Positions 1,627-64,000 of a stretch of 64,000 nt of DNA are shown piece after piece; the stretch's first letter is position 1; each line of letters begins with the position of its first letter. The stretch comes from Herbiconiux moechotypicola. GTDB taxonomy: Bacteria; Actinomycetota; Actinomycetes; Actinomycetales; Microbacteriaceae. The DNA lies in contig NZ_JANLCN010000006.1 of NCBI RefSeq assembly GCF_024979255.1, positions 62,001 to 126,000 of the forward strand. Reading direction: 5' to 3'. The translations under genes and the position numbers were made by a program. The notes below the pieces were generated by a model. It did no database searches. It had not been told where the DNA came from and saw nothing but the letters and a program-made list of their open reading frames with translations.

Positions 1627-3045
1627 ATGGACTGGATGCCCCGCACCGAAGACCTCCCGCTCGGCCTCTCGCGCGACGACGACGGATTCGCCCAGGTGAT
1701 CACGGCCGGACTGTTCAACCCCCTCGACGCCGCTCTCGACACCGCGCCCGGCACCGACCCGGCCCTCCCCGAGGAGATCGTCTTCCCCCGATCCGAACGC
1801 GACGTGCTCGAGATCGTGCGCCTCGCCCGCGAGACCGGACGCCGCGTGGCGGTCCGCTCCGGCGGCCACAGCTGGGTGGCCTCCAGCGTGCGCGGAGACG
1901 GCATCCTCATCGATCTCGCCGCCCTCGACCACGTCCGGTTCGACCTCGCCGACCCCGCGCATCCCACCGCCACCGTCGGCCCCGGCGTGCGCGGCCAGAA
2001 CCTCTCCCGCCTCCTCGAGCAGAACGGCGTGGCCTTCCCCGTCGGTCACTGCGGTACACCGGCGGTCGGCGGCTTCCTGCTCGGCGGCGGACTCGGCGTG
2101 AATTGGGGGCACTGGAAGCCCGCGTGCTTCTCGGTGCTCCGGATGCGCGTGGTGACGGCCGCGGGCGAGTCGGTGACGGCGTCGGCCACCGAGAACCCCG
2201 AGCTGTTCTGGCTGGCCCGCGGTGCGGGGCCGGGCTTTCCCGGCGTCGTGACCGAGTTCGAGCTCGCGCTGCAGCCGCTGCCCGGCGGCATCCGGGTCTC
2301 CACCTGGCTCTTCGACCTCGACGATCTCCCCGCGGTCACGGAGTGGGTGACGGAGGCTTCCCGCTCGCTCCCGCCGAACGTGGAGGTGTCGCTCGTGACC
2401 TCGGGTGCGAACCGCCCGGATGGAAGGGGCGCGAGTGACCCGCATCCGTTCGTCGTCGGGGTGGCCGCGACCGCCTTCGCCGACGACGTCGCCGAGGCCG
2501 AACGACTGCTCGCGCCCCTCAGTACAGCACCGACCGCGCTCGAGCACGCCGCTCTCCTCGACGTGCCCTTCTCGGCGCTGCACGAGCCCGTCGACGACAC
2601 CTATCCGGTGGGAGCCCGCTTCCTCGCCGACACCTTCTGGTTCTCCGGCGACCTCCGCGAGGCGATGGCTCCCCTGCAACGACTCATGCGCCGGGCCCCC
2701 TCGGGTCACAGCTACGTGCTCGCCGGAATGCCTGCCAACGGCGCAGGTTCCCGCCTGCTCACGCCGGGCGAGGCGGCGTATGGGATGCACGACACCACGT
2801 GCTTCAACGTGTACACGATCTGGCACGACTCCGCCGACGACGCCGTCAACCGCGCCTGGCTCGACGAGGTGGCGGCGACCCTGCTGCCGATGAGCTCGGG
2901 GCACTTCCTCAACGAGGCCGACATCCGGCGCCGCCCCGAGCGGGTGCCCGCGTCGTTCCGGCCCGCGGACTGGGAGCGGCTGCAGCGGCTGCGGCGCGAG
3001 TGGGACCCGGAGGAGCTGTTCCACGGCTGGCCAGGGGGCGGGTGA
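1627..3045 (+). CDS. FAD-binding oxidoreductase, berberine-bridge-like (PCMH-type)
   Basis: The protein has 472 residues and an ATG preceded by GAGGA. The N-terminal third is a PCMH-type FAD domain. RSGGHSW places His81 where the family attaches FAD through the 8-alpha carbon. Cys142, in GHCGTPAVGG before the GGGLG turn, aligns with the cysteine that forms the second (6-S-cysteinyl) bond in berberine-bridge-type oxidases. The flavin is therefore predicted to be bicovalently bound, as in oxidases acting on bulky alcohols, sugars or alkaloids; the substrate cannot be read from sequence. The C-terminal region ends in a short berberine-type tail. No signal peptide is seen, so it is probably cytoplasmic. 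It stands alone. Confidence 0.85.
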   Translation: MDWMPRTEDLPLGLSRDDDGFAQVITAGLFNPLDAALDTAPGTDPALPEEIVFPRSERDVLEIVRLARETGRRVAVRSGGHSWVASSVRGDGILIDLAALDHVRFDLADPAHPTATVGPGVRGQNLSRLLEQNGVAFPVGHCGTPAVGGFLLGGGLGVNWGHWKPACFSVLRMRVVTAAGESVTASATENPELFWLARGAGPGFPGVVTEFELALQPLPGGIRVSTWLFDLDDLPAVTEWVTEASRSLPPNVEVSLVTSGANRPDGRGASDPHPFVVGVAATAFADDVAEAERLLAPLSTAPTALEHAALLDVPFSALHEPVDDTYPVGARFLADTFWFSGDLREAMAPLQRLMRRAPSGHSYVLAGMPANGAGSRLLTPGEAAYGMHDTTCFNVYTIWHDSADDAVNRAWLDEVAATLLPMSSGHFLNEADIRRRPERVPASFRPADWERLQRLRREWDPEELFHGWPGGG

Positions 3046-3180
3046 GCGCGCGCCGGCTCGTGAGGTCGTCGAACGGTCGAACAAGGGAGGAGATTCGGGG
3101 GAGAGGGCAGTCAGAGGGGCAGGTTGCCGAATTCCCCTCCCGAACTCACGCGATACGCTCGGGAGCGGAGGGATATCGCG

Positions 3181-4034: not shown

Positions 4035-4041
4035 CGCCGCG

Positions 4042-9376: not shown

Positions 9377-12301
<2,925 letters not shown>

Positions 12302-17680: not shown

Positions 17681-19449
17681 GCGACCCCACCACCACCCCG
17701 GGCGCGCGCCCGCTGCTCGAGATCAAGAACCTCGAGGTCGGCTTCCAGTCCTCCGACGGCATCATCCCGGCCGTGCGCGGGGTCGATCTCACCCTCATGG
17801 CCGGCCAGACCCTCGCCATCGTGGGGGAGTCCGGCTCGGGCAAGTCGACCACCGCCTCCGCCATCATCAACCTGCTCCCGGGGGCCGGACGCATCACCGG
17901 CGGGTCGATCCTCTTCGATGGCAAAGAGCTCACCAACTACTCCACGAAGCAGATGGAGGACATCCGGGGCCGCGAGATCGGCTACGTGCCGCAAGACCCC
18001 ATGTCGAACCTCAACCCGGTGTGGAGCGTCGGCTTCCAGGTCGAGGAGACGATCCGCGCGAACGGCATCGCCACCGGCCGGAAGGCCGTGCGGGAGCACG
18101 CCATCCAGGTGCTCCGCGAGGCCGGGCTGCAGGATGCGGACAAGCGGCTCAAGCAGTTCCCGCACCAGTTCTCGGGCGGTATGCGGCAGCGCGTGCTCAT
18201 CGGCATCGGCCTGTCGTCGCGCCCCAAGCTGCTCATCGCCGACGAGCCCACCTCGGCGCTCGACGTCACCGTGCAGCGGCGCATCCTCGACCACCTCGAG
18301 ACCCTCACCCGCGACATCGGCACCGCGGTGCTCTTCATCACCCACGACCTGGGCCTCGCCGCCGAGCGCGCCGAGCAGCTCGTGGTGATGTACAAGGGGC
18401 GCATCGTCGAGGCGGGCCCCTCGCGGGAGATCCTCGAGAACCCCCTGCACCCCTACACGCAGCGCCTGGTGGCCGCAGCGCCCAGCCTGGCCTCGCGCCG
18501 CATCCTCTCGGCCACGCAAGAATCGGCGACGCACTCGCTCAGCGACCTCGACTACGCGCCCACGACGGTCACCGAGGGCATCGACCTCATCGCGGCCGCG
18601 GAGGAGCGGGTCGAGCGGGAGCGCGCCGGTGGAGCCGCGCCGACGCGCCGCCCCGACGCCATCGTGGTGAACGACCTCACGAAGGTCTACAAGATCCGCG
18701 GCCAGGGCAAGGGCTCGGCGGGCGAGATCACCGCCGCCGACCACGTGTCGTTCGCGGTGGAGAAGGGCACCACCACGGCGATCGTGGGGGAGTCGGGCTC
18801 GGGCAAGTCGACCGTGGCGAAGATGATCCTCAAGCTCGAGCAGCCCACCAGCGGCCAGATCCTGATCGACGGCGTCGACGTGGCGCCGCTGAAGGGTCGC
18901 TCGCTGCTCGACCTGCGCCGCCGCCTGCAGCCGGTGTTCCAAGACCCCTACGGTTCGCTCAACCCGCTGCGCAACATCGGCAACACCATCGCCGAGCCGT
19001 TGCTCGTGCACAAGGCGGGTGACCACGCGAGCCGCCGCGCCCGGGTGCTCGAGCTGCTCGACCAGGTGGCCTTGCCCCAATCGCTCATCACGCGCTACCC
19101 GAACGAACTCTCGGGCGGACAGCGTCAGCGCGTCGCCATCGCACGCGCTCTCGCGCTCAAGCCCGACATCGTCGTGCTCGACGAGGCGGTGTCGGCACTC
19201 GACGTGCTGGTGCAGGCGCAGATCCTGAAGCTCCTGGCCGAGCTGCAGTCCGAGCTCGAGCTCACTTACCTCTTCATCACGCACGATCTCGCGGTCGTGC
19301 GGGTCATCGCCGACAACGTGTGCGTGATGCAGAAGGGTCGCATCGTGGAGGCGGCTTCGACCGACGAGGTCTTCGACCACCCTCAGGAGCAGTACACTAA
19401 GGAGTTGCTGAACGCCATTCCGGGTGCCGGAATCGCCCTGGGCGTCTAG
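17677..19449 (+). CDS. Fused dual-domain peptide ABC transporter ATPase (DppD-DppF)
   Basis: The protein has 590 residues and contains two complete ABC domains in one chain. Domain 1 has GESGSGKST, the FSGGMRQR signature and Walker B LLIADEPTSALD; domain 2 has a second GESGSGKST, LSGGQRQR and IVVLDEAVSALD. Domain 1 resembles DppD and domain 2 DppF, which are separate genes in many bacteria. A linker of about 50 residues rich in charged residues joins them. The start ATG overlaps the dppC-type stop in ATGA. It powers import of peptides through the two permeases encoded just before it. Confidence 0.94.
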   Translation: MSDPTTTPGARPLLEIKNLEVGFQSSDGIIPAVRGVDLTLMAGQTLAIVGESGSGKSTTASAIINLLPGAGRITGGSILFDGKELTNYSTKQMEDIRGREIGYVPQDPMSNLNPVWSVGFQVEETIRANGIATGRKAVREHAIQVLREAGLQDADKRLKQFPHQFSGGMRQRVLIGIGLSSRPKLLIADEPTSALDVTVQRRILDHLETLTRDIGTAVLFITHDLGLAAERAEQLVVMYKGRIVEAGPSREILENPLHPYTQRLVAAAPSLASRRILSATQESATHSLSDLDYAPTTVTEGIDLIAAAEERVERERAGGAAPTRRPDAIVVNDLTKVYKIRGQGKGSAGEITAADHVSFAVEKGTTTAIVGESGSGKSTVAKMILKLEQPTSGQILIDGVDVAPLKGRSLLDLRRRLQPVFQDPYGSLNPLRNIGNTIAEPLLVHKAGDHASRRARVLELLDQVALPQSLITRYPNELSGGQRQRVAIARALALKPDIVVLDEAVSALDVLVQAQILKLLAELQSELELTYLFITHDLAVVRVIADNVCVMQKGRIVEAASTDEVFDHPQEQYTKELLNAIPGAGIALGV

Positions 19450-19501: not shown

Positions 19502-21409
19502 ATGGCCCATGCCACCCGTTCCGACCTGCGCAACGTCGCGATCGTCGCCCACGTCGACCACGGCAAGACCACCCTGGTCGACGCCATGCTCACGCAGACG
19601 AACTCGTTCGACGCGCACTTCGACGCCGACGACCGCATGATGGACTCGAACGACCTCGAGCGCGAGAAGGGCATCACGATCCTCGCCAAGAACACGGCGA
19701 TCTCGTACAACGGCGTGCACGCCACCGGCGCCCCCATCACCATCAACGTGATCGACACCCCGGGCCACGCCGACTTCGGCGGCGAGGTGGAGCGCGGCCT
19801 CTCGATGGTCGACGGCGTGGTGCTGCTCGTCGACGCCAGCGAGGGCCCGCTGCCGCAGACCCGCTTCGTGCTGCGCAAGGCCCTCGAGGCGAAGCTCCCC
19901 GTCATCCTCCTGGTCAACAAGACCGACCGGCCGGATGCGCGCATCGACGAGGTCGTCGGAGAGTCGCAAGACCTGCTGCTGGGTCTCGCCTCCGACCTGG
20001 CCGACGACGTGCCCGACCTCGACCTCGACGCCATCCTCGACGTGCCGGTGGTCTACGCCTCGGGCCGTAACGGCGCCGCGAGCCTGAACAAGCCGGCCAA
20101 CGGCGAGCTGCCCGACAACGGCGACCTCGAGCCGCTCTTCGGCGCCATCCTCGAGCACATCCCGGCCCCCACCTACGACGACGAGGCGCCCCTCCAGGCC
20201 CACGTCACCAACCTCGACTCCTCGCCCTTCCTCGGCCGCCTCGCGCTCCTGCGCGTGTTCAATGGCGAGATCAAGAAGGGCCAGCAGGTCGCGTGGGTCA
20301 AGCACGACGGCACGGTGCAGAACCAGCGCATCACCGAGCTGCTCATGACCAAGGCGCTCACCCGCTACCCGACCGAGAAGGCCGGCCCCGGCGACATCGT
20401 GGCCATCGCGGGCATTGAGAACATCACCATCGGCGAGACCATCGCCGACCCGGAGGACGTGCGTCCCCTGCCCGCCATCGTGGTCGACGACCCCGCCATC
20501 TCGATGACCATCGGCACCAACACCTCGCCGCTCGTCGGCAAGGTGAAGGGCCACAAGCTCACCGCCCGCATGGTGAAGGACCGCCTCGACCGCGAGCTCA
20601 TCGGCAACGTGTCGCTCCGGGTCGAAGACATCGGGCAGCCCGACGCCTGGGAGGTTCAGGGCCGTGGCGAGCTCGCCCTCGCCATCCTGGTCGAGAACAT
20701 GCGCCGCGAGGGCTTCGAGCTCACCGTCGGCAAGCCCCAGGTGGTCACCCGCCAGATCGACGGCAAGACCCACGAGCCCTTCGAGCACCTCACCATCGAC
20801 GCGCCCGAGGAACACCTCGGCGCCATCACCCAGCTGCTGGCCGCGCGTAAGGGCCGCATGGAGGGCATGTCGAACCACGGTACGGGCTGGGTACGCATGG
20901 AGTTCATCGTGCCCTCGCGCGGCCTCATCGGCTTCCGCACCGAGTTCCTCACCATCACCCGCGGCACCGGTATCGCCAACGCGATCTCGCACGGTTACGA
21001 GCCCTGGGCGGGGTCCATCGTCACCCGCAACAACGGCTCCATCGTGGCCGACCGCTCCGGCGTCGTCACCCCGTTCGCCATCATCGGCCTGCAGGAGCGC
21101 ATGACCTTCTTCGTGAACCCCACCGAGGAGGTCTACGAGGGCATGGTCATCGGTGAGAACTCGCGCGCCGACGACATGGACGTGAACATCACGAAGGAGA
21201 AGAAGCTCACGAACATGCGTTCGTCGACGGCCGACTCCTTCGAGTCGATGACGCCGTCGCGCCAGCTCTCGCTCGAAGAGTGCCTGGAGTTCGCCCGCGA
21301 GGACGAGTGCGTCGAGGTCACGCCCGAGACGGTGCGCATCCGCAAGGTGGAGCTCGACCAGAACGCGCGCGCCCGACGCACCGCGAACCTCAAGCGCGCC
21401 AACCAGTAG
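19502..21409 (+). CDS. typA: Translational GTPase TypA/BipA
   Basis: The protein has 635 residues. The GTPase motifs are complete: AHVDHGKTT (residues 16-24), EKGITIL in switch I, DTPGHADF and NKTD. EF-G-like domains follow and the family-specific C-terminal domain closes the protein ([29 protein letters not shown]). TypA binds the 70S ribosome and helps large-subunit assembly and growth at low temperature and under stress. AGAGGA lies before the ATG at 19502. The gene stands alone after the transporter operon. Confidence 0.96.
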
Positions 21410-21429
21410 CGCGGGGCCCCGGATGCGGC

Positions 21430-29099: not shown

Positions 29100-30386
<1,287 letters not shown>

Positions 30387-30431
30387 CGCGCGCGCGGGCG
30401 CGCGCCCCGCGCATCCTCACCTCTCCTTCAT

Positions 30432-40672: not shown

Positions 40673-41167
40673 GTGACGGATCCTTCAGCCGCCCCTCGTC
40701 GAGCCCCCTCCCGCATCCCGGTGATTCCCCGGGGCGAGGTGGTGGCGAGTTTCGAGAACTACCAGGATGCGCAGCGCGCCGTGGAGAAGCTCGCACTGGC
40801 GGAGTTCCCGGTGAAGCAGGTGTCGATCGTGGGCAGCGACCTCAAGAGCGTCGAGCAGGTGACCGGCAAGATGAGCTACGGCCGGGCGGCGCTCGCCGGG
40901 GCTCTCTCGGGGCTCTGGGTGGGGCTGTTCTTCGGGTTGCTGCTCGTGCTGCTGTCGCCCACGTCGACCACGCCGGGGTTCATCGGTGCGGCCGCCCTCA
41001 TCGGTGCCGGATTCGGCCTCTTCTTCAACATCGTGGTGTACAGCATCAGCCGCCGCCGTCGCGACTACACCTCGGTGATGCAGGTGGTCGCCTCCTCCTA
41101 CGCCGTCATCGTCGCCCCCGAGCTCGCCAACCGCGCCCGCAACGCCCTCGACCGCCCCGCGGAGTAG
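40673..41167 (+). CDS. General-stress-type membrane protein (DUF1269/YflT-like)
   Basis: The protein has 164 residues. A soluble N-terminal domain with VVASFENYQDAQRAVEKLALAEF (general-stress 17M-like) is followed by two membrane helices joined by a glycine-rich turn (about 70-118), then a small cytoplasmic end. The gene is divergent from the MgtE-N/CBS protein, as in mycobacteria (Rv1234 next to Rv1232c). GAGGAT lies six bases before GTG 40673. The role is stress-linked only by family. Confidence 0.82.
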   Translation: MTDPSAAPRRAPSRIPVIPRGEVVASFENYQDAQRAVEKLALAEFPVKQVSIVGSDLKSVEQVTGKMSYGRAALAGALSGLWVGLFFGLLLVLLSPTSTTPGFIGAAALIGAGFGLFFNIVVYSISRRRRDYTSVMQVVASSYAVIVAPELANRARNALDRPAE

Positions 41168-43615: not shown

Positions 43616-43662
43616 TCCCCTCCACCCGCCGAGCCACGCCGACCGCGGGGCGGATGCGCACA

Positions 43663-45275: not shown

Positions 45276-45528
45276 TGGGAAACCTGTCGTGAGTGCGGAG
45301 CCGCCGTGAAGGGAACGGTGCCGCGGCGCAGCGGCGCTGCAGCGGCGATGCCGGCGATGGCGCCGGACGGCGGCGAGTTGCCCTGAATGTTCGTCAGGGC
45401 CCGAGCCGAGTTTAGCCGACGGCGGCTGTGAGGCCTCCTCACGGCGTTCGACGGCGGGTCGGGATGCGCGAGGCGGCGCGCTGGGGCGCGGTCGGGATGC
45501 GCAGGGCGGCCCGGTTAGGATGGGCGTC
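45276..45528. other. Divergent intergenic region, possible long leader of the helicase gene
   Basis: No gene is supported here. A TAAACT on the minus strand (complement of 45409-45414) could be the helicase -10, giving a leader of about 130 bases as in cold-inducible helicase mRNAs. GTGAGG/CCTCAC (45428-45442) form a small inverted repeat. Two copies of GGTCGGGATGCGC stand near 45459 and 45491. Confidence 0.35.
45516..45521 (+). promoter_or_regulatory. -10 TAGGAT, probably leaderless
   Basis: TAGGAT ends seven bases before GTG 45529. Confidence 0.55.
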
Positions 45529-46850: not shown

Positions 46851-47085
46851 CAGCTGTGCCTTTCACGTCACGTGACCGCGTGGGCGGCCACCAGCCCAGA
46901 GTACGGCACCGCTCGCAGCCGCTCGGCCGGCGGGCGAGAGTCGGGCACCTGCCCAGAGCGAACAGGCGGCCGACCGCGGGGCGAGACCGTGGGGCGACGA
47001 CGGGGAGCGGAACGTCTGAAGCCGAGGGCGGACACCCGGATGCGCGTCCCACGCGATGTCCGAGGGTGCGGCTAGCGTGGTGGCC
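46851..47085. other. Divergent intergenic region before adnA
   Basis: No gene is supported. It holds the divergent promoters of DUF3107 and adnA; the adnA side ends in TAGCGT (47073-47078). I see no strong hairpin. Confidence 0.4.
47073..47078 (+). promoter_or_regulatory. -10 TAGCGT for adnA, probably leaderless
   Basis: TAGCGT ends seven bases before GTG 47086. Confidence 0.55.
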
Positions 47086-50000
47086 GTGATGGACCACGGC
47101 ACCCTCGAGCGCGACACGGCCCTCGGCCGTCCGGTCGAGCTCGATGCGAGCCAGACCGAGGTGCTCGGCCGGCCCGCCGGGGCGTCGTTCTCGGTGATCG
47201 GCGCCCCGGGCAGCGGCAAGACCACGGTGCTCGCCGAGCTCGCCGCACACCGCGTGCTCGGGCAGGGCCTACCCCTCGACCGCCTGCTGGTGCTCACCCC
47301 CACCCGCCGCGGGGCGACGGCGCTGCGCGACCGCCTCGCCCTGAGGCTCGGCCTGCCGAGCAGCGGCCCACTCGCCCGCACACCGGTGTCGGCGGCCTTC
47401 GCCCTGCTGCGCGGCAGCGCCCGAGAGCGCGAGGTGGCGCTGCTCACCGGAGCGGAGCAGGACTCCATCGTGGCCGACCTCCTCCAGGGCGAGCTCGACG
47501 ACGAGGCCGCCGGCGGAGCGGGTCTCGGCTGGCCCGAGTCGCTGCCGCCCGAGGTGCGGCGGCTCCGCGCGTTCCGCACCGAGCTGCGCGAGCTCATGAT
47601 GCGGGCGACCGAGAGCGGCGTCGGCGCCCGTCGGCTCGACGCCCTCGGCCGTCGGCACGGGGTGCCCGAGTGGTGCGCCGCGGCGAGGTTCCTCGCGGCC
47701 TACCAGGGCGTGGTCGACTCCTACGACGCCGAACGGCTCGATTCGGCCGAGCTGCTGGCCGAGGCGAGGGCGGTGCTGCGCCGGCGTCGGGAGAGCGGCG
47801 GCGCCGAGGGTTCCGCGCCGGCGCTCGTGCTCGTCGACGACGCGCACGACCTGCCCGTAGGCGCCTGGAACCTGCTCTCCGAGTTCGCCCGCTCGGGTTC
47901 GGCCGTGGTCGCCTTCGGCGATCCGGATGTCGCGACGACGGGGTTCCGGGGCTCCGACGTGCGTGCCCTCGGCCAGCTCGGCCGCGCGCTCGGCGTGGCG
48001 GTGCTGCCGCCGCTGGTACTGCAGACCAGTCACCGGCAGAGCGGTGCGCTGCGCGCCCTGACCCGCCGCATCACCGAGCGCACCGGGGCCGCGGCCGCCG
48101 GGACTCAGCGCACTGCGGGCTCCCAGCGCACCGAGAGCCCGGCGACGGCAGGAGACGCCCCCGGCGCCCGCCCGGCCGGCAGGGTGCTCACCATCCAGGC
48201 CGACACCCGCGCGGGCGAGATCGCCACCGTGGCGCGGGTGCTCCGCGAGCAGCACCTGCTGCACGGCGTCGACTGGCACCAGATGGCGGTGATCGTGCGC
48301 TCCGGGTCGCTCGTGCCGGGCCTCGCCCGCGGCCTGGCGCTCGCCGAGGTGCCCACCCGCACGCACTCCGCCGTGCAGGCGCTCCGCGAAGACTACGCTG
48401 CGCGCCATCTCATCGGGGCGCTGGCACTCGCCATCGGCGCGAGCGAGCCCACCCCCGACGCCGTCGACGACCTGCTGCTCGGGCCGCTGGGCGGCATCGA
48501 CGGCATCGGTCTCCGCCGTCTGCGCCTGGCGCTGCGCCACGACGAGCTCGCGCAGGGCGGCTCCCGCCACGCCGACGAGCTGCTGCGGGAGGCACTCGCC
48601 ACGCCGGGGGCGCTCGCCACCTTCGACTCCGCGCCGGCCCGCCGCGTCGCGGCGCTCGCCACCACGCTGGCCGCCGTCGCCGACCGCGCTCGGGCGGGGG
48701 AGTCGGTGGAATCGCTGCTCTGGGAGCTCTGGCAGCGTTCGGGGCTGGCGCGCCGCTGGGGCGATCTCGCCTCGGGGTCGGGTGTGCTCGCCGAGGAGGC
48801 CGACCGCAATCTCGACGGCGCCGTGGCGCTGTTCACCGCCGCCCGTCGCTCGGTCGAGCGCGACCCCTCCCGCGCCCCCGAGCTGTTCGTGGCCGAGGTG
48901 CTCGGGGCCGAGGTGCCCGAAGACACGCTCTCCCCGCACTCGCGCGCCGACTCGGTGCTCGTCACGACACCGACCGGGGCCGTCGGCCTCGAGGTGGAGG
49001 TCGTCGTGGTGGCCGGGCTGCAGGAGTCGGTGTGGCCCAACCTCCGGCTGCGCAACTCGCTGCTGCACGCGGAGCGGATGGTGGAGGTCGCCGATCACGA
49101 GCTGGCCGACAACGAGATGGGCGTGGGCCCGCATCCCGTGACCGCCGCCGTCACCCTGGCCGACTCGCGCGCCGAGGTGCTCTCCGGCGAACTGCGCATG
49201 CTCGCGCTCTCCACCTCCCGTGCCCGGAGCCTGGCGGTGCTCTCCTGCGTCGCCAACGACGAGGAGCAGCCCTCGGCGTTCTTCGGCTTCGCGCCCGACG
49301 CCGACCCGGTGCCCACCGCGCGTCAGCCGCTCACCCTGCGTGGCCTCACCGGGCAGCTGCGCCGTCGGCTGGTCGAGCGCGGCGACCGCCAGGCCGCGCC
49401 CGCGCTGGCGCGGCTCGCCGCCGAGGGGGTGCCCGGTGCCGCCGTCACCGACTGGTACGGGCTCGCCCCGGCCAGCACCGAGCATCCGCTCGTCGACCCG
49501 GCAGACCCCGAGGCGGTGGTGCGGGTGTCACCCTCCCGCATCGAGGCGTTCGAGCAGTCGCCGTTGGTGTGGTTCGTCGACCAGGTGGCGGGAGGCTCGA
49601 AGTCGCTCGCCGCGGGCATCGGCACGATCGTGCACGCGGTGATGGAGGGCGCATCGACCGACCCCGACGCCGATCTCTCACCCGAGGCGCTCGCCGAGTC
49701 GGCGGGGGAGCGCTGGACCGAGCTGCGCTTCGAGGCGCCCTGGCTCGAGCAGCGCGAACAGCGTGCCCTGCGGGTGAAGCTCGAGGGCCTCTCCGACTAT
49801 CTGCGCGAGTTCAGAGCGGGTGAGCGGGAGCTCGCCGGGGCCGAGGCCACCTTCGCCCTGCGCCAGGGGCGGGCGCTCGTGTCGGGGTCGATCGACCGGG
49901 TGGAGCGGCTTCCCGACGGCCGCCTCGTGGTGATCGACCTCAAGACCGGCCGCACCCCGCCGCGCCGGGCCGACCTCCCCGGTCACGCGCAGCTCGCGAG

Positions 50001-50325
50001 CTACCAGCTCGCGCTGCACGTCGCGTCGATCGACGACCTGCCTCTCGACGATGCCGGCCCTCTCGACGATCCCGGCGCACCGGCGGTCGATCTGGGGGGT
50101 GCCGCGCTGCTCTACGTGTCGAAGGGCGGCCGGGGGTCGAGGTTCACCGTGCTCGATCAGGAGCCGCTCGACGAGGAGGCGCTCGCCCTCATCCGGAGCC
50201 GTATCGACGCGGTGGCCGACGGGATGAGCGGGGCCCGGTTCAGGGCCGTCGCCGAGCCCGAGGAGCGCGATCACCAGAACCGCTACGAGTACCGCATCCA
50301 GCTCGTGAAGGCGGTGTCGGAGTGA
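47086..50325 (+). CDS. adnA: AdnA-like helicase-nuclease subunit
   Basis: The protein has 1079 residues. The N-terminal UvrD-like motor has Walker A GAPGSGKTT (39-47). The Walker B is LVLVDDAHD with Asp251-Asp252 in place of the usual DExQ, and the motor motifs are weaker than in its partner, as known for AdnA. The C-terminal RecB-like nuclease module has the metal residues in SGSIDRVE and VVIDLKTG and the HAQLASYQLAL motif. With AdnB it forms the end-resection motor of actinobacterial double-strand break repair in the cytoplasm. It overlaps adnB by the GTGA stop-start. Its place before adnB, nudC and uvrD2 matches mycobacteria. Confidence 0.9.
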   Translation: MMDHGTLERDTALGRPVELDASQTEVLGRPAGASFSVIGAPGSGKTTVLAELAAHRVLGQGLPLDRLLVLTPTRRGATALRDRLALRLGLPSSGPLARTPVSAAFALLRGSAREREVALLTGAEQDSIVADLLQGELDDEAAGGAGLGWPESLPPEVRRLRAFRTELRELMMRATESGVGARRLDALGRRHGVPEWCAAARFLAAYQGVVDSYDAERLDSAELLAEARAVLRRRRESGGAEGSAPALVLVDDAHDLPVGAWNLLSEFARSGSAVVAFGDPDVATTGFRGSDVRALGQLGRALGVAVLPPLVLQTSHRQSGALRALTRRITERTGAAAAGTQRTAGSQRTESPATAGDAPGARPAGRVLTIQADTRAGEIATVARVLREQHLLHGVDWHQMAVIVRSGSLVPGLARGLALAEVPTRTHSAVQALREDYAARHLIGALALAIGASEPTPDAVDDLLLGPLGGIDGIGLRRLRLALRHDELAQGGSRHADELLREALATPGALATFDSAPARRVAALATTLAAVADRARAGESVESLLWELWQRSGLARRWGDLASGSGVLAEEADRNLDGAVALFTAARRSVERDPSRAPELFVAEVLGAEVPEDTLSPHSRADSVLVTTPTGAVGLEVEVVVVAGLQESVWPNLRLRNSLLHAERMVEVADHELADNEMGVGPHPVTAAVTLADSRAEVLSGELRMLALSTSRARSLAVLSCVANDEEQPSAFFGFAPDADPVPTARQPLTLRGLTGQLRRRLVERGDRQAAPALARLAAEGVPGAAVTDWYGLAPASTEHPLVDPADPEAVVRVSPSRIEAFEQSPLVWFVDQVAGGSKSLAAGIGTIVHAVMEGASTDPDADLSPEALAESAGERWTELRFEAPWLEQREQRALRVKLEGLSDYLREFRAGERELAGAEATFALRQGRALVSGSIDRVERLPDGRLVVIDLKTGRTPPRRADLPGHAQLASYQLALHVASIDDLPLDDAGPLDDPGAPAVDLGGAALLYVSKGGRGSRFTVLDQEPLDEEALALIRSRIDAVADGMSGARFRAVAEPEERDHQNRYEYRIQLVKAVSE

Positions 50326-53300
50326 ACGGCGACGCCCTGTTCGAGCTGGCCGAGCTCGACGATCCCGGGGCCTTCGAGGCCCGGCTCGACCGCGCCTCCG
50401 GGCGCGCGTCCGACGCCCGCATCCCGTCGGTGGACCGATCCGTCGCGCCCAGCCGATCCGGCTCCGCCTCCCAGGCCTCAGCGGCGCGCCACTCGGCCGC
50501 CGAGATCGCCGAGCGGCTCGGGCTGCCCACCCCCACGCGCCAGCAGCAGGCCGTCATCGAAGCGCCCCTCGAGCCGGCGATCGTGGTCGCCGGGGCGGGC
50601 AGCGGCAAGACCGAGACGATGGCGAACCGCGTGGTGTGGCTCGTGGCCAACGGACTCGTGCGGGAGTCGGAGGTGCTCGGCCTCACGTTCACGCGCAAGG
50701 CCGCCGGCGAGCTCGCCGAGCGCATCCGCCGCCGTCTCGCCGAGCTGGCGCTCTCGGGTCTCGTCGAGCGCGAGAGCGATCCGTTCCAGACACCCGTCAT
50801 CTCCACCTACAACGCCTTCGCCAACGGCATCTACCGCGAGAACGCGACCGTCATCGGCCGCGAGAGCGAGGCCGCCGTCCTGAGCGAGGCCTCGGCCTGG
50901 CAGCTCACCCGGTCGGTCGTGGTGGGCAGCTCCGACGAGCGTCTGCTGAAGGTCGACCGGCAGGTCGACGCCGTCACGAGCGCGGTGCTCGCTCTCAGCC
51001 GCGCCCTCGCCGAGAACGTGGCCGACGCGGGTGCGGTCGGCCGGTACGCCGACCGCTTCGCGGCGCTGGCCGAGCTGCCCACGGGGTCGTCGCGGGTGCG
51101 CGACGTCTACGCACCCCTGCGCCGTTCCATCGAGGCGGTGGCGCCGCTCCCGCTCGTGCTCGCCCTCGCCGAGGAGTACGCGGCCGAGAAGGTGCGGCGC
51201 GGCTACGTGGAGTTCTCCGACCAGATCGCCCTCGCCCTCGCCGTCGCCGAGAGCTCCCCGGCCATCGTCGCCGATTACCGCGACCGCAGCCGGGTGGTGC
51301 TGCTCGACGAGTACCAAGACACCAGCGTGGTGCAGACCCGGCTGCTCGCACGCCTGTTCGCGGGGCATGCGGTGATGGCGGTGGGAGACCCGCACCAGTC
51401 CATCTACGGCTGGCGCGGGGCGAGCGCCGCCAACCTCGCCCGGTTCGCGACCGACTTCGGCGCCTCGGGCGAGCCGTTCGCGCTGTCGACGAGCTGGCGC
51501 AACCCGACCCGGGTGCTGGATGCGGCCAACGCGCTGGTGACGCCGCTCACGGCCGAGAGCGCGGTCGTGGTGGAGAGCCTGCAGCCGCGGCCGGGCGCGG
51601 GTGAGGGGTCGGTCGACACCGCGTTCGCCGAGACGGTCACCGAGGAGGCCGACGCGGTCGCCTCCTGGTTCCAGCGCAGGCTGGCCGCCGCCGAGCCACC
51701 GACAGCGGCGCTGCTGTGCCGCTCGGTGAAGAAGATCGAGCCGTTCACGGCCGCTCTGGAGCGCCGGGGAATCCCGTATCACGTGCTCGGGCTCGGCGGT
51801 CTGCTCATGCAGCCCGCGGTGGCCGACCTCGTGTCCACGCTGCGCGTGCTCTACCACCCCACCGCCGGGGCCGACCTCCTGCGGGTGCTGGGCGGTGCCC
51901 GCTGGCGCATCGGGGTGCGCGACCTCGCGGCCCTTCGCGCCCTCGCCTCGTGGATCGCCGAGCGCGACCATCGCTTCCAGAAGCTCGAACCGGCCGTGGC
52001 CGGGCGCATCCGGGGTTCGGTCGTGGCCGACGAAGACCGGTCGATCGTCGACGCGCTCGACTTCGTCGCCACCGCGCCCGAGGGTCACTCCGCCCTGGAA
52101 GGCTTCTCGCCGGTGGGACTCGACCGGCTGCGCCGAGCCGGTGCCCAGCTCGCCGAACTGCGCACCCGCGCCGGCCTCGGACTCGTCGACTTCGTCGACC
52201 TCGTGCAGCAGGAGCTGCTGCTCGACGTGGAGGTGCTCGCGAGCCCCCACGCCGCAGAGGGCCGCGCGGCACTCGACGCCTTCTCGGAGCAGCTCGTCTC
52301 CTTCCTCGCCCTCGACCCGTCGTCGGGGCTCGGCGACTTCCTCGCCTGGCTGGAGGAGGCGGAGAAACGCGAGCGGCTCGAACCGCGGAGCGATCCGGCC
52401 GAGCCCGGCACCGTGCAGATCCTCACCATCCACGGTGCCAAAGGTCTGGAATGGGACCTGGTCGCCGTGCCGCGGATGGTGGAGGGCGAGCTGCCGGGCG
52501 ACCCGCGCAGCAAGCTCGGCTGGCTGGCGTTCGGCGAGCTGCCCTACGACTTCCGGGGCGACCGCGCCGAGCTGCCGATGCTCGACTGGCAGGGGATCGA
52601 GACCCAGACCGCGTTCGGGCCGGTTCTCGAGGAGTTCCGCGAGGCGAACGCCGAGCACTACGCGGCGGAGCAGCGCCGCCTCGCCTACGTGGCGGTGACG
52701 CGCGCGCGCGACGCGCTCCTGGTGTCGGGCTCGTTCTGGTCGACCGGTGTCACCGCGCGCCCGCCGAGCCGCTACCTGCACGAGCTGGCCGAGGCCGGCG
52801 TTGTCGAGGCGGAGGTGCTGCCCGACCGCTCCGAGCACGAGCAGAACCCGCTCGCCGAGACCGAGTCCTGGGTGAGCTGGCCCCGGGAGCCGCTCGGCAC
52901 GCGGCGAGGCCGGATGGAGTCGGCTGCGGCGCTGGTGGAGGGGTCCGACCCCGCGGCTCCCACCCCGTGGGACTCCGAGATCGAGCTGTTGCTGGCCGAA
53001 CGGGCCGACCGGATGCGCGCGGCGCGGCTCGACGTGCCGGTACGCATCCCGGCCTCGCGGTTCAAGGACTACGTCGCCGACCCGCAGGCGGTGCTGCGAA
53101 CGCTGCGACGGCCGATGCCCGAGCGCCCGTTCCGCCAGACCCGTCTCGGCACCCGGTTCCACAGCTGGGTGGAGAACCGCTTCCGCGACCGCGGAGGCGA
53201 GCTGCTCGCGGCGGCGTCGCCCTCGTCGGGCGACCTCGACGCGTTCGCCGACGAGCTCGAGTTCGACGACGACGATCTCGGAGACGACGCCGGTGCCTCC

Positions 53301-53753
53301 GGTGCGTCCGCGCCCGGTGTCTCAGCTCTCGAGAGCGCAACCTGGCGCGCGGCGGACGAGCTCGACGACGACGAGCGCCGACTCGCGGAGCTCATCGCCA
53401 CCTTCGAACGCTCGGAGTTCGCCGAGCGCGACGCCGTCGAGGTGGAGCGCGAACTCCACCTCGTGCTCGGCGGGCGCATCGTGGTGTGCAAGATCGACGC
53501 GATCTTCGCCGAGGGGGATGGCTTTCTCGTGGTCGACTGGAAGACGGGCAAGGCCCCCCGCGACGAGGAGGAGCTGCAACTGAAGCAGCTTCAGCTCGCT
53601 CTCTACCGACTCGCCTACGCGCGCTGGGCCGGCATCGATGTGGAGCGGGTCGACGCCTGCTTCTACTTCGTCTCCGACGACGCCGTCGTCAGGCCGACCA
53701 TGCTCGACGACGAGGCCGAGCTCGAGCGGCTCGTGCGGAGCACGCTCGGCTGA
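50322..53753 (+). CDS. adnB: AdnB-like helicase-nuclease subunit
   Basis: The protein has 1143 residues, a full UvrD/Rep motor plus nuclease. Motor motifs: GAGSGKT (91-97), TFTRKAAGEL, LLDEYQDTS, GDPHQSIYGWRGA, TIHGAKGLEWD and VAVTRARDAL. The C-terminal nuclease motifs are VCKIDAIF and VVDWKTGKAP, then QLQLALYRLAYAR. In the AdnAB heterodimer the B subunit is known as the main motor, which agrees with the intact motifs here. The first 65 residues are Ser/Ala-rich. GTG 50322 overlaps the adnA stop. Confidence 0.93.
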   Translation: MNGDALFELAELDDPGAFEARLDRASGRASDARIPSVDRSVAPSRSGSASQASAARHSAAEIAERLGLPTPTRQQQAVIEAPLEPAIVVAGAGSGKTETMANRVVWLVANGLVRESEVLGLTFTRKAAGELAERIRRRLAELALSGLVERESDPFQTPVISTYNAFANGIYRENATVIGRESEAAVLSEASAWQLTRSVVVGSSDERLLKVDRQVDAVTSAVLALSRALAENVADAGAVGRYADRFAALAELPTGSSRVRDVYAPLRRSIEAVAPLPLVLALAEEYAAEKVRRGYVEFSDQIALALAVAESSPAIVADYRDRSRVVLLDEYQDTSVVQTRLLARLFAGHAVMAVGDPHQSIYGWRGASAANLARFATDFGASGEPFALSTSWRNPTRVLDAANALVTPLTAESAVVVESLQPRPGAGEGSVDTAFAETVTEEADAVASWFQRRLAAAEPPTAALLCRSVKKIEPFTAALERRGIPYHVLGLGGLLMQPAVADLVSTLRVLYHPTAGADLLRVLGGARWRIGVRDLAALRALASWIAERDHRFQKLEPAVAGRIRGSVVADEDRSIVDALDFVATAPEGHSALEGFSPVGLDRLRRAGAQLAELRTRAGLGLVDFVDLVQQELLLDVEVLASPHAAEGRAALDAFSEQLVSFLALDPSSGLGDFLAWLEEAEKRERLEPRSDPAEPGTVQILTIHGAKGLEWDLVAVPRMVEGELPGDPRSKLGWLAFGELPYDFRGDRAELPMLDWQGIETQTAFGPVLEEFREANAEHYAAEQRRLAYVAVTRARDALLVSGSFWSTGVTARPPSRYLHELAEAGVVEAEVLPDRSEHEQNPLAETESWVSWPREPLGTRRGRMESAAALVEGSDPAAPTPWDSEIELLLAERADRMRAARLDVPVRIPASRFKDYVADPQAVLRTLRRPMPERPFRQTRLGTRFHSWVENRFRDRGGELLAAASPSSGDLDAFADELEFDDDDLGDDAGASGASAPGVSALESATWRAADELDDDERRLAELIATFERSEFAERDAVEVERELHLVLGGRIVVCKIDAIFAEGDGFLVVDWKTGKAPRDEEELQLKQLQLALYRLAYARWAGIDVERVDACFYFVSDDAVVRPTMLDDEAELERLVRSTLG

Positions 53754-60167: not shown

Positions 60168-61310
60168 GTGACCCTGTTCGAACCCGAGGGCGCACCGGCA
60201 CGCCCCCGCTCCGGCGCGCGCCGGGTCACCGGCCCCGTCAATGCCGGGTGGACGGTGCTCATCGTCGCCCTGGTGCTGGGCCTGGTCATGAGCCTCCTGC
60301 CCGCGCCCTACGTGATCGAGCAGCCGGGCCCCGTCTACGACACCCTCGGCACCCAGGAGCAGGACGGCGAGGAGGTGCCGCTCATCTCGATCGAGGGCAC
60401 CGAGACCTATCCCACGGCGGGCACCCTCGACATGCTCACGGTGTCGGTGCGCGGCACCCCGGAGTCGCGGCCGAGTTGGGCCGAGATCCTCAGCGCCTGG
60501 TTCGACCCCACCAAGGCCGTGCTCCCGATCGACCAGGTGTACCCGCCGAGCGTCACCACCGAGGAGCGCAACGAGCAGAACGCGACCCTCATGGTCGACA
60601 GCCAGCAGGCCGCGATCGCCGCCGCGCTCACCCAGCAGGACATCGCGTTCGGCACCGAGCTCGCGGTCGCCGCGGTCGACGACGAGGGGCCCTCGGCCGG
60701 CTCGCTCGTGGAGGGCGACCTCATCCTCAGCGTCAACGGCACGTCTGCCGACGACGTCGACGAGCTGCGTGCGGCGCTCGCCGCGAACGGCACCGAGCAG
60801 CCCGCGCAGGTCGTCGTGCAGCACGAGGACGGCACCGAGGAGACCGTCGGCATCGTGCCCCAGATCTCCGACACGACGGGAACGCCGGCCCTCGGCATCA
60901 CCGTGATGCAGAGCTACGACTTCCCGTTCGACGTCGAGATCCAGCTCGACAACGTGGGCGGGCCGAGCGCCGGCATGATGTTCGCACTCGGCATCATCGA
61001 CATGCTCACCCCCGGCGAGCTGAACGGCGGCCAGAACGTGGCCGGCACGGGCACCATCGACGCCGCGGGCGAGGTGGGCGCGATCGGCGGCATCCGCCAG
61101 AAGATGTACGGGGCGAAGGATGCGGGGGCCGGCTGGTTCCTCGCCCCCGCGTCGAACTGCGGCGAGGTCGTGGGCCATGTGCCCGACGGGCTCACGGTGT
61201 TCGCCGTGTCGACCCTCGACGACTCGATGGCGGCGCTCGACGCCATCGCGAGCGGAGGGGACACCTCGGCGCTGCCCACCTGCGACAGCGTGCTGAGCGC
61301 CGCCAGCTGA
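60168..61310 (+). CDS. Membrane-anchored PDZ/Lon-type serine protease
   Basis: The protein has 380 residues. One membrane helix (about 27-48) anchors it with the rest outside. A PDZ-like domain (about 170-235: GPSAGSLVEGDLILSVNGT) precedes a Lon-type protease domain with the catalytic Ser267 (in GGPSAGMMF) and Lys312 (in GIRQKMYG), 45 residues apart, as in Lon. Substrates are unknown; the PDZ domain suggests choice of C-terminal tails. GTG 60168 follows GAAAGGA. It is probably the first of the pair with UPF0182. Confidence 0.92.
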   Translation: MTLFEPEGAPARPRSGARRVTGPVNAGWTVLIVALVLGLVMSLLPAPYVIEQPGPVYDTLGTQEQDGEEVPLISIEGTETYPTAGTLDMLTVSVRGTPESRPSWAEILSAWFDPTKAVLPIDQVYPPSVTTEERNEQNATLMVDSQQAAIAAALTQQDIAFGTELAVAAVDDEGPSAGSLVEGDLILSVNGTSADDVDELRAALAANGTEQPAQVVVQHEDGTEETVGIVPQISDTTGTPALGITVMQSYDFPFDVEIQLDNVGGPSAGMMFALGIIDMLTPGELNGGQNVAGTGTIDAAGEVGAIGGIRQKMYGAKDAGAGWFLAPASNCGEVVGHVPDGLTVFAVSTLDDSMAALDAIASGGDTSALPTCDSVLSAAS

Positions 61311-61405
61311 CGCACGGCGGCCCGCCAGCGGGCTCCCAGCCGGTCGCTCCTAGTATTCGGAGTGTCTAGGATTGACAGACACCGGCACCAGACGCAGAGG
61401 CATAC

Positions 61406-64000
61406 GTGACTTCCCAATCAGCAGAGAAGCCCGCACGACGTTCGAGAGTCACTCTCGCGATCGCGATCGCGATCGTGGTGGTGCTCGCCATCCTGTTCTT
61501 CGTCTTCTCGACGCTCTACACCGAGATCCTCTGGTACGACCAGCTCGGCTTCCTCAACGTGCTCACCACGCAGTGGCTCGCGGCCGGGGTGATGTTCGTC
61601 ATCGGCTTCTTCGCCATGGCACTGCCCGTGTGGGCCTCCATCGAGATTGCCTTCCGCTGGCGGCCGGTGTACGCCAAGCTCAACTCGCAGCTCGACCGCT
61701 ACCAGCAGGTCATCGAGCCGCTCCGCCGTCTCGCCACCTTCGGCGTGCCCGCGGTGCTCGGCCTGTTCGCGGGTGTCGCCACCGCCTCCCGGTGGCAGCT
61801 CACGCTGCAGTACCTCAACCGCACCGCGTTCGGCCAGACCGACCCGCAGTTCGGGCTCGACATCTCGTTCTACATCTACGACCTCCCGTTCTGGCGCGGG
61901 GTCGTGGGGTTCGCCTCCGCCGTCGTGATCGTGTCGGGGCTCGCGGCCATCGCCACGAGCTACCTCTACGGGGCCATCCGGTTCTCGCAGCGTGAGGTGC
62001 GCATCTCGAAGATCGCGCGCATCCAGATGGCCGTCACCGCCGCCGTCTACCTGCTGCTGCAGGCCGTGAGCATCTGGCTCGACCAGTACGCCACGCTCGC
62101 CAACAGCTCGGGGCTCATCACGGGAGCGAGCTACTCCGACGTCAACGCCACCATCCCGGGTCTTCAGATCCTGGCCGGCATCGCGGCCATCGTCGCCATC
62201 CTCTTCCTCGTCGCCGCCGTCATCGGCCGCTGGCGGCTGCCCATCATCGGCACGGCCCTGCTCGTGGTGAGCGCCCTCATCCTGGGCTCGCTCGCGCCGT
62301 GGGTGGTGCAGCGGTTCCAGGTCGACCCCTCGGAGCGCACGCTCGAGGCCGAGTACATCCAGCGCAACATCGACATGACGCGCGACGCCTACGGGGTCGC
62401 CGACGTGGAGGAGACGCCCTACGAGGCCACCACCACGGCCGAGGCGGGTGCGCTGCGCAACGACGCCGAGACCACGGCCAACATCCGCATCCTCGACCCC
62501 GCCCTCGTGTCGCGGTCGTTCCAGCAGCTGCAGCAGTTCAGGCAGTACTACCAGTTCCCCGAGCACCTCGACGTCGACCGCTACGACATCGACGGCCAGG
62601 TGCAGGATGCAGTGGTCACCGTGCGCGACATCGACATCGACGCCCTGGGCGCCTCGGCCACCTGGTACAACCAGACCGTCGTCTACACCCACGGCTACGG
62701 CGTGGTCGCTGCCTACGGCAACCAGCGCTCGGCCGACGGCCAGCCCGTGTTCCTGGAGTCGGGCATCCCGTCGGTGGGCGAGCTCGGCGACTTCGAGCCG
62801 CGCGTGTACTTCGGTGAGAACTCGCCCGCGTACTCCATCGTGGGCGGGCCCGAGGGCGGCTCGAACGTGGAGCTCGACTACCCGTCGGGCACCGACGGCG
62901 CCTCGCAGACCTACACCACCTTCCAGGGCGACGGCGGGCCGAAGCTCGACAACATCTTCAAGAGGCTCGTCTACGCGCTGAAGTTCCAGTCCGAGCAGAT
63001 CGTGCTGTCGGATGCGGTGAACGACGACTCGCAGATCCTCTACGACCGCGACCCCGCGCAGCGCGTGTCGAAGGTGGCGCCCTACCTCACCATCGACTCC
63101 GACCCCTACCCCTCGGTGGTCGACGGGCGGATCGTGTGGATCGTCGACGGCTACACCACCTCGGCGAACTACCCGTACTCCAAAGTGCAGTCGCTCAGCG
63201 AGTCGATCGCCGACACCTACACGCCCACCCCGGCGTACCCGGTCGACGACATCAACTACATCCGCAACTCGGTCAAGGCCACGGTCGACGCCTACGACGG
63301 CTCGGTCACGCTCTACGCCTGGGACGAGAGCGACCCGCTGCTGCAGACCTGGGAGAAGATCTACCCGGCCACCATCAAGCCGATCAGCGAGATGTCGGGC
63401 GACCTCATGAGCCACGTGCGCTACCCGGCCGACCTGTTCAAGGTGCAGCGGTCGATCCTCGGCACCTACCACGTGACGGATGCGGGCTCCTTCTACTCGC
63501 AGGAGGACGCCTGGACGACGCCCAACGACCCGACCTCCTCGGCCACCAGCCCCACGCTGCAGCCGCCGTACTACCTCACCCTGCAGATGCCCACGCAGGA
63601 CGACCCGTCGTACTCGCTGTACTCGACGTTCATCCCGCTCTCGCAGCAGGAGGCGGAGTCGTCGCGGAGCGTGCTCACGGGCTACCTGGCGGTGGATGCG
63701 AACGCCGGCTCGACCGACGGGGAGAAGTCCGACGACTACGGCAAGCTGAGGCTGCTCACGCTGCCGAAGGACGACACGATACCGGGGCCCGGCCAGGTGC
63801 AGAACAGCTTCTCGGCCGACCCGGCGGTCTCGGGCGCCCTCAACCTGCTGCGGCAGGGCGAGAGCAGCGTGATCAGCGGCAACCTGCTCACCCTGCCCGT
63901 GGGCGGCGGTCTGCTCTACGTGCAGCCGGTGTACGTGCAGTCGCGCGGTGAGACGAGCTTCCCGCTGCTGCAGAAGGTGCTCGTGTCGTTCGGTAACGAG
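61406..64000 (+). CDS. UPF0182 (COG1615) large membrane protein, 3' partial
   Basis: The visible part is 865 residues and runs off the window, so the end is not seen. GTG 61406 follows AGAGG. About seven membrane helices fill the first 310 residues (IAIAIVVVLAILFFVFST first), then a large extracellular domain with the family segments RTLEAEYIQRNIDMTR and SVKATVDAYDGSV. The family is conserved next to the PDZ protease gene in actinobacteria. Function is unknown. The preceding TAGGAT (61366-61371) may be its own -10. Confidence 0.93.
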   Translation, partial: MTSQSAEKPARRSRVTLAIAIAIVVVLAILFFVFSTLYTEILWYDQLGFLNVLTTQWLAAGVMFVIGFFAMALPVWASIEIAFRWRPVYAKLNSQLDRYQQVIEPLRRLATFGVPAVLGLFAGVATASRWQLTLQYLNRTAFGQTDPQFGLDISFYIYDLPFWRGVVGFASAVVIVSGLAAIATSYLYGAIRFSQREVRISKIARIQMAVTAAVYLLLQAVSIWLDQYATLANSSGLITGASYSDVNATIPGLQILAGIAAIVAILFLVAAVIGRWRLPIIGTALLVVSALILGSLAPWVVQRFQVDPSERTLEAEYIQRNIDMTRDAYGVADVEETPYEATTTAEAGALRNDAETTANIRILDPALVSRSFQQLQQFRQYYQFPEHLDVDRYDIDGQVQDAVVTVRDIDIDALGASATWYNQTVVYTHGYGVVAAYGNQRSADGQPVFLESGIPSVGELGDFEPRVYFGENSPAYSIVGGPEGGSNVELDYPSGTDGASQTYTTFQGDGGPKLDNIFKRLVYALKFQSEQIVLSDAVNDDSQILYDRDPAQRVSKVAPYLTIDSDPYPSVVDGRIVWIVDGYTTSANYPYSKVQSLSESIADTYTPTPAYPVDDINYIRNSVKATVDAYDGSVTLYAWDESDPLLQTWEKIYPATIKPISEMSGDLMSHVRYPADLFKVQRSILGTYHVTDAGSFYSQEDAWTTPNDPTSSATSPTLQPPYYLTLQMPTQDDPSYSLYSTFIPLSQQEAESSRSVLTGYLAVDANAGSTDGEKSDDYGKLRLLTLPKDDTIPGPGQVQNSFSADPAVSGALNLLRQGESSVISGNLLTLPVGGGLLYVQPVYVQSRGETSFPLLQKVLVSFGNE

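Follow-up and report, generated by a model that had tools for sequence, protein, structure and literature searches.

The seven-base word GGATGCG, with its reverse complement CGCATCC, is over-represented in Herbiconiux moechotypicola, and this excess is real, strong and genome-wide. The stretch analyzed, hereafter the window, comprises 64,000 bases (71.0% G+C; G000:C41:62001-126000) of a 4,277,819-base genome in 51 contigs. Selection or drive acting on the DNA itself is the only reading we found that fits all reading frames, non-coding DNA and codons that follow their sequence context. As for function, our leading explanation, which we hold at slightly under an even chance, is that in the Microbacteriaceae, a family of soil and plant bacteria, GGATGCG serves as a highly iterated recognition word, the actinobacterial equivalent of the highly iterated palindrome (HIP) of cyanobacteria, read as a mark of self in repair or recombination.

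An exact letter count gives 40 copies of GGATGCG and 44 of CGCATCC in the window, 84 sites in both orientations spanning 1958..63700 (the first copy at 1958, the last at 63694), in agreement with the 35-45 copies per orientation of the original prediction. Genome-wide, the word occurs 2533 times forward and 2537 times reverse, about 1185 per Mb or 1.2 per kb; read backwards, it is found only 280 and 344 times. Within the window, 72 copies lie inside genes predicted with our own codon-model script, which is not a standard caller, and 12 lie outside. The original prediction placed copies in some gaps, which is borne out, and in all genes, which is not: 17 of the 49 predicted genes carry none.

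Null models were applied to 61 pieces of the genome totaling 1,261,930 bases (1094 predicted genes, 1.109 Mb coding and 153.6 kb non-coding). The coding part contains 1212 copies, against 364 expected when synonymous codons are shuffled within genes, 441 when the 3|1 dinucleotide is kept and 490 when the 3|12 trinucleotide is kept. GGATGCG has the highest z of all 7-mers under each of these three codon-preserving nulls, with some rarer words that hold part of the core (e.g. ACGGATG) exceeding it in ratio in two of them. With the 3|1 null as reference, GGATGCG is raised 4.1-, 4.3- and 9.6-fold in its three frames and CGCATCC 1.18-, 4.9- and 5.9-fold; the 1.18-fold class (Arg CGC, Ile ATC) consists of codons that are preferred already and is saturated. 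A codon-pair model, which itself takes up part of the effect, leaves all six frame classes above expectation (observed/expected 429/180, 86/33, 29/25, 367/231, 143/87 and 158/103), the third marginally, at 1.17-fold. In the non-coding DNA, 224 copies compare with 41.5 under an order-2 Markov model, again the top z of all 7-mers; an order-4 model, into which most of the word is already built, raises the expectation to 105.7.

The original prediction had proposed counting all 7-mers against Markov and codon-shuffled nulls, and had named a codon-preserving shuffle and a dinucleotide or codon-pair model as the calculations that might explain the excess away. These were run: the word stands first by z, the shuffles reach 364-490 copies, and the codon-pair model underestimates all six frame classes. 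These figures led us to reject bias in codon usage, dinucleotides or codon pairs as the explanation, and we consider it extremely improbable that ordinary bias, avoidance of GGAC included, is the cause. Such bias does exist, as the roughly two-fold avoidance of GGAC lifts GAT after any G to 0.20 on average, and the 1.17-fold class speaks for it; the three codon nulls, the other five codon-pair classes and the context-specific use of GAT all exceed what it can supply, and the word is also the highest-z 7-mer where there are no codons.

Synonymous codons were compared inside and outside the word context. Asp is encoded by GAT in 11-12% of cases overall; between a preceding G and GCG, GAT accounts for 429 of 490 codons (0.88), and for 266 of 279 when CG precedes. 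Before GCG but after C the count is 122/819, and after G it is 19/23 before GCT and 53/152 before GCC. His is CAT in 143 of 182 codons in the context CG_CC vs 7 of 34 in CC_CC; intermediate values (CCG and CCC, 0.32-0.67) are seen in the remaining NG_CC contexts, where GGATGCA, GGATGCC or GGATGCT is completed. Ala GCA after C is used in 157/520 codons before TCC vs 25/693 before TCG and 101/689 before CCC. Gly GGA makes up 29/75 before TGCG vs 4/45 before TGCC, with 12/45 before TGCA and 12/33 before TGCT, where the words formed are themselves raised. Arg CGG is found in 46/61 before ATGCG vs 11/41 before ATGGC, and Arg CGC in 367/385 before ATCC vs 447/616 before ATCG. The claim that the word overrides codon preference is upheld for both Asp and His.

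Expressed as shifts into the word context, GAT moves from.35 to.88, CAT from.21 to.79, GCA from.04 to.30, CGG from.27 to.75 and CGC from.73 to.95, about 1.9 to 2.7 logit units whichever base changes (calculated by hand with the first-named controls; for Asp, GCC or GTG after G). Since the shifts are similar across different base changes, they indicate selection or a conversion-like drive and are unlike the product of one mutation type; a single type such as CpG deamination accounts for some frames only. When genes are divided into quartiles by codon adaptation, GAT in the word context remains at.81,.90,.90 and.89, while GAT without a preceding G drops from.158 to.043; CAT in the word context is 24/33, 41/46, 53/60 and 25/43. 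Selection on DNA, as originally proposed, or a drive with the same effect, is well supported by the codon nulls, the non-coding excess, the agreement of all frames and the codons that follow context.

The tetramer GGAC/GTCC is avoided about two-fold genome-wide (5181 vs 10145 expected), and part of the use of GAT after G reflects this avoidance, an effect separate from the word. As a sole cause it is real but too weak, GAT after G being 391/1963 (0.20) outside the word context vs 0.88 within it. 7-mers containing GGAC are among the most depleted under the codon nulls, likewise in a second Herbiconiux genome (G012) and in other Microbacteriaceae. A protein-level cause was also rejected. The observed/expected ratios of the dipeptides Asp-Ala, His-Pro and Arg-Ile are 1.05, 1.60 and 1.22 in this genome, 1.18/1.44/1.25 and 1.12/1.70/1.29 in two sets without GGATGC excess and 1.10/1.87/1.11 in Microbacterium. 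Word-capable dipeptides are therefore not clearly enriched over relatives lacking the word, and proteins are not visibly altered to make it.

Comparison with a close relative (G006) shows that, from one species to the other, the choice of synonymous codon tracks whether the rest of the word is there. The two genomes share 82 orthologues at 83% nucleotide identity; pairs were counted once and, there being no outgroup, gains and losses are not separated. At 35 aligned Asp pairs with a word-compatible context in one genome only, GAT is used 31 times there and 6 times in the other; at 16 pairs with the context in both genomes, 31 of 32 codons are GAT. Elsewhere, taking both directions, GAT stands opposite GAT in 52/195 cases and opposite GAC in 143/2677. 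His pairs are few: five with both contexts have CAT in 9/10 codons, and those with one context have 3/4 vs 1/4. Among the GGATGCG sites, 7 of 42 in G000 and 2 of 39 in G006 have CGACGCG opposite them. A smaller set of 15 relatives agrees for Asp (45/92 vs 47/179 in 13 of them, 6/16 vs 5/26 in the two closest) and disagrees for its few His sites (1/13 and 0/2).

The comparison with sister genera suggested at the outset was carried out, and related genera carry altered words or no excess. GGATGC is enriched in 16 of 16 genus members, 2.0- to 4.1-fold (order-2 Markov, about 11-21 kb each), and within Herbiconiux the seventh base is G or C in varying proportion: the present genome has 2533/2537 GGATGCG and 708/931 GGATGCC (forward/reverse), G012 1270/1234 and 2401/2514. 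The uneven distribution of GGATGCC over the contig strands of the present genome, next to the even one of GGATGCG, may be due to chance or a repeat; contig orientation is arbitrary. By observed/expected counts under the codon null, GGATGCC is the form in Agromyces (87/38), Cryobacterium (122/50), Microbacterium (367/196), Mycetocola (52/18) and Salinibacterium (48/18), GGATGCG in Leifsonia (40/19) and in genome G035 (96/40), and both GGATGCA (51/9) and GGATGCG (112/38) are raised in G034. Clavibacter has instead the palindrome GGATCC, 156/41.5 in 92.6 kb of coding DNA and visible in three frames: Asp GAT is 48/73 in G_CC vs 17/118 in C_CC, Gly GGA 53/83 before TCC vs 11/49 before TCG, and Arg CGG 24/44 before ATCC vs 12/70 before ATCG. 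Leucobacter displays only a mild GGATC effect (GGATCG 388/286, GGATCC 116/70), and no clear GGATGC excess was seen in Curtobacterium, Plantibacter, Microcella and Frigoribacterium PhB160 (20-78 kb coding each). In genus g45 of the family, the GGATGCS (S, G or C) density of G141, about 540 per Mb, is roughly a quarter to a third of that in G110, G155, G169 and G183 (about 1800-2190), all uncorrected for base composition; this could be a natural loss or dialect switch and could reveal the reader gene.

Turning to the shape of the word, 21 single substitutions were compared with the original (2.71). A clear excess is kept by two, both at base 7, namely A (2.15) and T (1.66); C at this base gives 1.12, and the remaining 18 range from 0.26 to 1.28. 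Some variants are depleted, namely GGACGCG (0.26), GAATGCG (0.36), GCATGCG (0.39) and GGATCCG (0.46). On the flanks, C is favored upstream, and C or G downstream. Because the flanks of the 224 non-coding sites carry at most 0.23 bit per position, the core of the word is seven bases, GGATGC followed best by G. A long consensus of the uptake type was rejected: coding 10-mers such as GACGGATGCG are 14-fold up, yet the non-coding flanks are nearly free of information.

Spacing is near random, with a coefficient of variation of the gaps of 1.01 (580 kb, 669 sites), 1.03 (242 kb, 288 sites), and 1.07 and 0.88 on two shorter contigs, values that exclude regular spacing on these four contigs. Gaps of 10-19 bases are in excess on one contig (11 vs 3.4) and not on three others (7/7.7, 2/2.5 and 1/1.2), and counts in 10-20 kb windows reveal slight clumping on one contig (variance/mean 1.4-1.6) and none on another (0.7-1.3). 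In 17 stretches of at most 50 kb of the genome there is no strand bias, the largest departure being 1.6 standard deviations. For the 4.40 Mb contig of G006 (25 stretches, 500 sites), the best half-circle split is 0.548, inside the null (mean 0.539, 95% 0.566), so no origin-terminus bias is seen. The original prediction of no strand bias, and of no likeness to an FtsK-guiding motif, agrees with these data as far as they extend: no orientation switch was found, a motif of the FtsK-orienting polar sequence (KOPS) type is unlikely, and a replication-strand or terminus-pointing motif was rejected. Adjacent copies slightly favor opposite orientation on contigs C1, C2, C3 and C41 of the present genome (609/1352 the same, 45%, z -3.6); in G006 the count is 225/475 (z -1.2).

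These distributions bear on the proposal that the word is a binding site of a nucleoid or chromosome-organizing protein. Its spread over the chromosome, on both strands and in coding and non-coding DNA, would suit such a role, and the Clavibacter palindrome would fit a dimeric binder, but no periodicity, domain or origin-terminus pattern was found, and we regard this explanation as improbable.

Phages allow hosts to be compared with other DNA that replicates in them. A first protein search returned no Microbacteriaceae phage among the best 60 of 277 matches; the sample consists of seven Microbacterium phages (311 kb). Together these have 279 GGATGC vs 228 expected and 96 GGATGCC vs 66-75, whereas hosts have 875 vs 479 and 451 vs 134. 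Under the codon null, GGATGC is 42/28.8 in a stretch of phage Pumpernickel, with no excess in Min1 (32/30.6) and A3Wally (29/30.1). The Clavibacter phage CMP1 has a modest GGATCC excess (22/12.9 coding), in the direction of its host genus. The far weaker enrichment in phages than in hosts means that replication in these cells does not by itself stamp the word onto a DNA, though residence times differ. Separately, GGATCC is depleted in the coding DNA of four M. foliorum phages (6 vs 23.0) and absent from that of Pumpernickel (host M. paraoxydans; 0 vs 13.3) and A3Wally (0 vs 10.6), while Min1 is not depleted (17/13.4); the shortage is of the kind that a BamHI-type enzyme, if widespread in these hosts, would leave.

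A DNA uptake word, through which competence machinery would prefer word-bearing DNA and transformation would drive the word up in the manner of DNA uptake sequences (DUS) or uptake signal sequences (USS), is in our judgment unlikely. Such sequences are about 9-12 bases long. The core here has seven bases, with flanks of at most 0.23 bit and only about three- to five-fold enrichment; the small family genomes G025 and G027 (1.4-1.5 Mb) look unenriched, with 54-107 GGATGCG and 91-144 GGATGCC per strand, uncorrected for composition. ComEC is present in 32/32 genomes, which speaks for uptake, and these include genomes where the word is absent, which speaks against it. Drive would nonetheless explain codons that follow their context, and the lack of strand bias and the near-random spacing accord with it. 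So do the dialects within one family, which resemble the DUS dialects of Neisseriaceae described in passages of PMC3630211, and the natural transformability of two Microbacteriaceae, described in passages of PMC11577799.

Another candidate reader is a solitary beta-class methyltransferase at G000:C12:94040-94942 on the minus strand (L235:2041-2943), whose neighbors are unrelated. A strong PF01555 match is present in 16/16 genus members, and is the sole PF01555 match in 13; an orthologue occurs in 47 of 50 genomes (45/48 of the family and two genomes of another family). If this orphan enzyme marked the word, methyl-directed repair or mutation could accumulate it, the model proposed for HIP1 in passages of PMC4390886, and this precedent, with the conservation of the enzyme, is what recommends the idea. 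The enzyme is, however, also found in genera without GGATGC excess (Plantibacter 2/2, Curtobacterium 2/4, Frigoribacterium, Leucobacter 7/7 and Clavibacter) and in 27 of 149 genomes of the order, including families f6 and f20, without matching word density: f20 genomes with it have about 240-440 GGATGCS per Mb, and four f4 genomes without it about 920-990, all uncorrected for base composition. Its closest solved relative is M.RsrI, and it is RsrI-like by sequence; the site of M.RsrI is GAATTC. Judged by eye, the middle region seems conserved across an alignment of 18 orthologues that include different dialects (Clavibacter excluded), and the PF00145 and PF02384 enzymes are patchily distributed. 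Deamination of methyl-C would account for GGACGCG becoming GGATGCG and not for the other frames, and passages of a marine metagenome paper (PMC9516812) give TTAA, not this word, as a methylated motif for Microbacteriaceae. We therefore hold a methylation-linked origin to be improbable, on a par with the chromosome-organizing protein.

The window itself encodes an AdnAB-like helicase-nuclease pair on the forward strand. The AdnA-like protein (47077..50322), a candidate reader, has a weaker UvrD match and PDDEXK_1; the AdnB-like protein (50322..53750) has UvrD and PDDEXK_1. By this account GGATGCG would be a Chi-like site that AdnA reads in single-stranded DNA, switching resection to RecA loading and protecting self DNA. 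Chi sites of several bacteria are short, non-palindromic, GC-rich, over-represented a few-fold and species-specific, and a GC-rich, non-palindromic 7-mer with few-fold enrichment is of this sort. AdnA is present in 32/32 genomes, word-rich or not; its identity, 62-71% in two other genus members tested and 38-56% in other genera, would allow dialects between genera, and its helicase domain matches the family more weakly than that of AdnB. The methyltransferase is slower to diverge (59-82%), so that a drifting specificity might suit AdnA better, which is only suggestive. That phages are less enriched than hosts also fits. Most known Chi sites are biased to the leading strand, and no replication-strand bias was seen here; Plantibacter and Curtobacterium have AdnA just as word-rich genera do and lack the word, Clavibacter uses a palindrome, and the accessible portions of the literature searched name no Chi of AdnAB. 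On balance a specific AdnAB Chi seems unlikely, if somewhat less so than uptake. Gene presence as such was rejected as a cause, as the PF01555 orphan methyltransferase, PF00145, PF02384, ComEC and AdnA all fail to separate word-rich from word-poor genomes.

We rank a HIP-like or Chi-like mark for repair or recombination first, followed by AdnAB Chi, uptake, methylation and architecture. On the first of these readings, a sequence-specific DNA-transaction protein would recognize self DNA by the word, most probably during chromosome repair or recombination. Each copy would add a small advantage, some 2 to 2.7 logit units with the chosen controls or a 2Nes of about 2-3, and dialects would arise as the specificity of the reader drifts and thousands of synonymous sites follow.

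Several observations weigh against this self-mark explanation. Among the proteins compared no reader came to light: the presence of methyltransferases (PF01555, PF00145, PF02384), ComEC or AdnA does not track the word. The spacing has no sign of the diminishing returns that a function of one mark per neighborhood would predict, and the size of the codon shift hangs on the control contexts, GCA before CCC (101/689) bringing it to about 0.9 units. Sites turn over, 45-69% of words being identical in the relative at 83% nucleotide identity; sense GGATGCG (45-49%) is kept no better than 18 composition-matched 7-mers (median 52%), the median for 93 frequent 7-mers being 39%, and individual sites are not specially conserved. 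Four M. foliorum phages have some GGATGC excess (131/102, codon null). The analogy with HIP is also imperfect: HIP1 is palindromic, and GGATGCG is not (only the Clavibacter GGATCC is), and HIP1 is linked to cognate methyltransferases, whereas the conserved orphan enzyme here does not track the word.

At the level of single copies, all 18 coordinates of the original prediction (eight Asp, six His and four gaps) proved correct, with placement on our own gene predictions; all are given on the forward strand. GGATGCG encodes Asp-Ala in CCG GAT GCG (Pro-Asp-Ala) of gcvP (10024..10030) and of typA (19933..19939), in CAG GAT GCG (Gln-Asp-Ala) at 18132..18138 and again in CAG GAT GCG at 40765..40771, in ACG GAT GCG at 36365..36371, in CTG GAT GCG of the second gene of the AdnAB-like pair (51518..51524), in AAG GAT GCG at 61118..61124 and in TCG GAT GCG at 63010..63016. 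CGCATCC lies in CCG CAT CCG (Pro-His-Pro) at 2441..2447 and in GCG CAT CCG at 12156..12162 (gcvP), 27881..27887, 29491..29497 (a citrate synthase gene), 32635..32641 and 43332..43338. Outside predicted genes are GGATGCG at 21421..21427, at 43652..43658 and, just upstream of the AdnAB-like pair, at 47038..47044, CGCATCC at 30410..30416, and two further GGATGCG at 45462 and 45495 (45462..45501). Both counter-examples cited originally are real, GAGGACGCC occurring at 6058 and 63503.

Codons otherwise used in a few per cent of cases rise to 30-95% wherever they complete this short word, a strong imprint of a process acting on DNA. More broadly, we see it as an even matter whether the Microbacteriaceae possess an undescribed genome-wide self-recognition code: a 6-7-base word (GGATGCS, GGATCC and variants) with a putative protein reader whose specificity has drifted between and within genera, rewriting thousands of synonymous sites per genome, and which several lineages lost or never had. 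The switches of dialect in one family, with sister lineages keeping, changing or lacking the word, offer comparative genomics a natural series in which to look for the reader, and could open the function of HIP1-type words, long an unanswered question, to direct testing. As a simple signature, the word also tells native from foreign DNA in these genera.

The accessible portions of the open-access literature searched name no such Microbacteriaceae word, and those of PMC5217627 and PMC6329791 contain no matching one. Among known iterated words, HIP sequences occur at 1000-2000 per million nucleotides and are replaced in some genomes by alternates, including GGGATCCC, with a link to methyltransferases, according to passages of PMC4390886. 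GGATGCG, at 1185 per Mb, falls inside this range; it is likewise GC-rich, has alternate words in some lineages and is rare or missing in others, and the HIP alternate GGGATCCC resembles the Clavibacter GGATCC. The phylum differs, in addition to the two differences named above. With the DUS/USS it shares thousands of copies and dialects within one family, as passages of PMC3630211 describe for Neisseriaceae; the word here is shorter, its enrichment weaker, its flanking consensus nearly nil, and it has no link to ComEC presence. Like Chi, it is short, non-palindromic, GC-rich, over-represented and species-specific, but it has no replication-strand bias (best split 0.548 vs null 95% 0.566 in G006), and AdnAB would have to be the host enzyme. 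KOPS point with a strong skew to the terminus, and their orientation switches at origin and terminus; GGATGCG is short and genome-wide as they are, without such a switch at either point. We therefore file GGATGCG among the highly iterated DNA-level words as a kind, without assigning it to HIP, Chi, DUS or KOPS.

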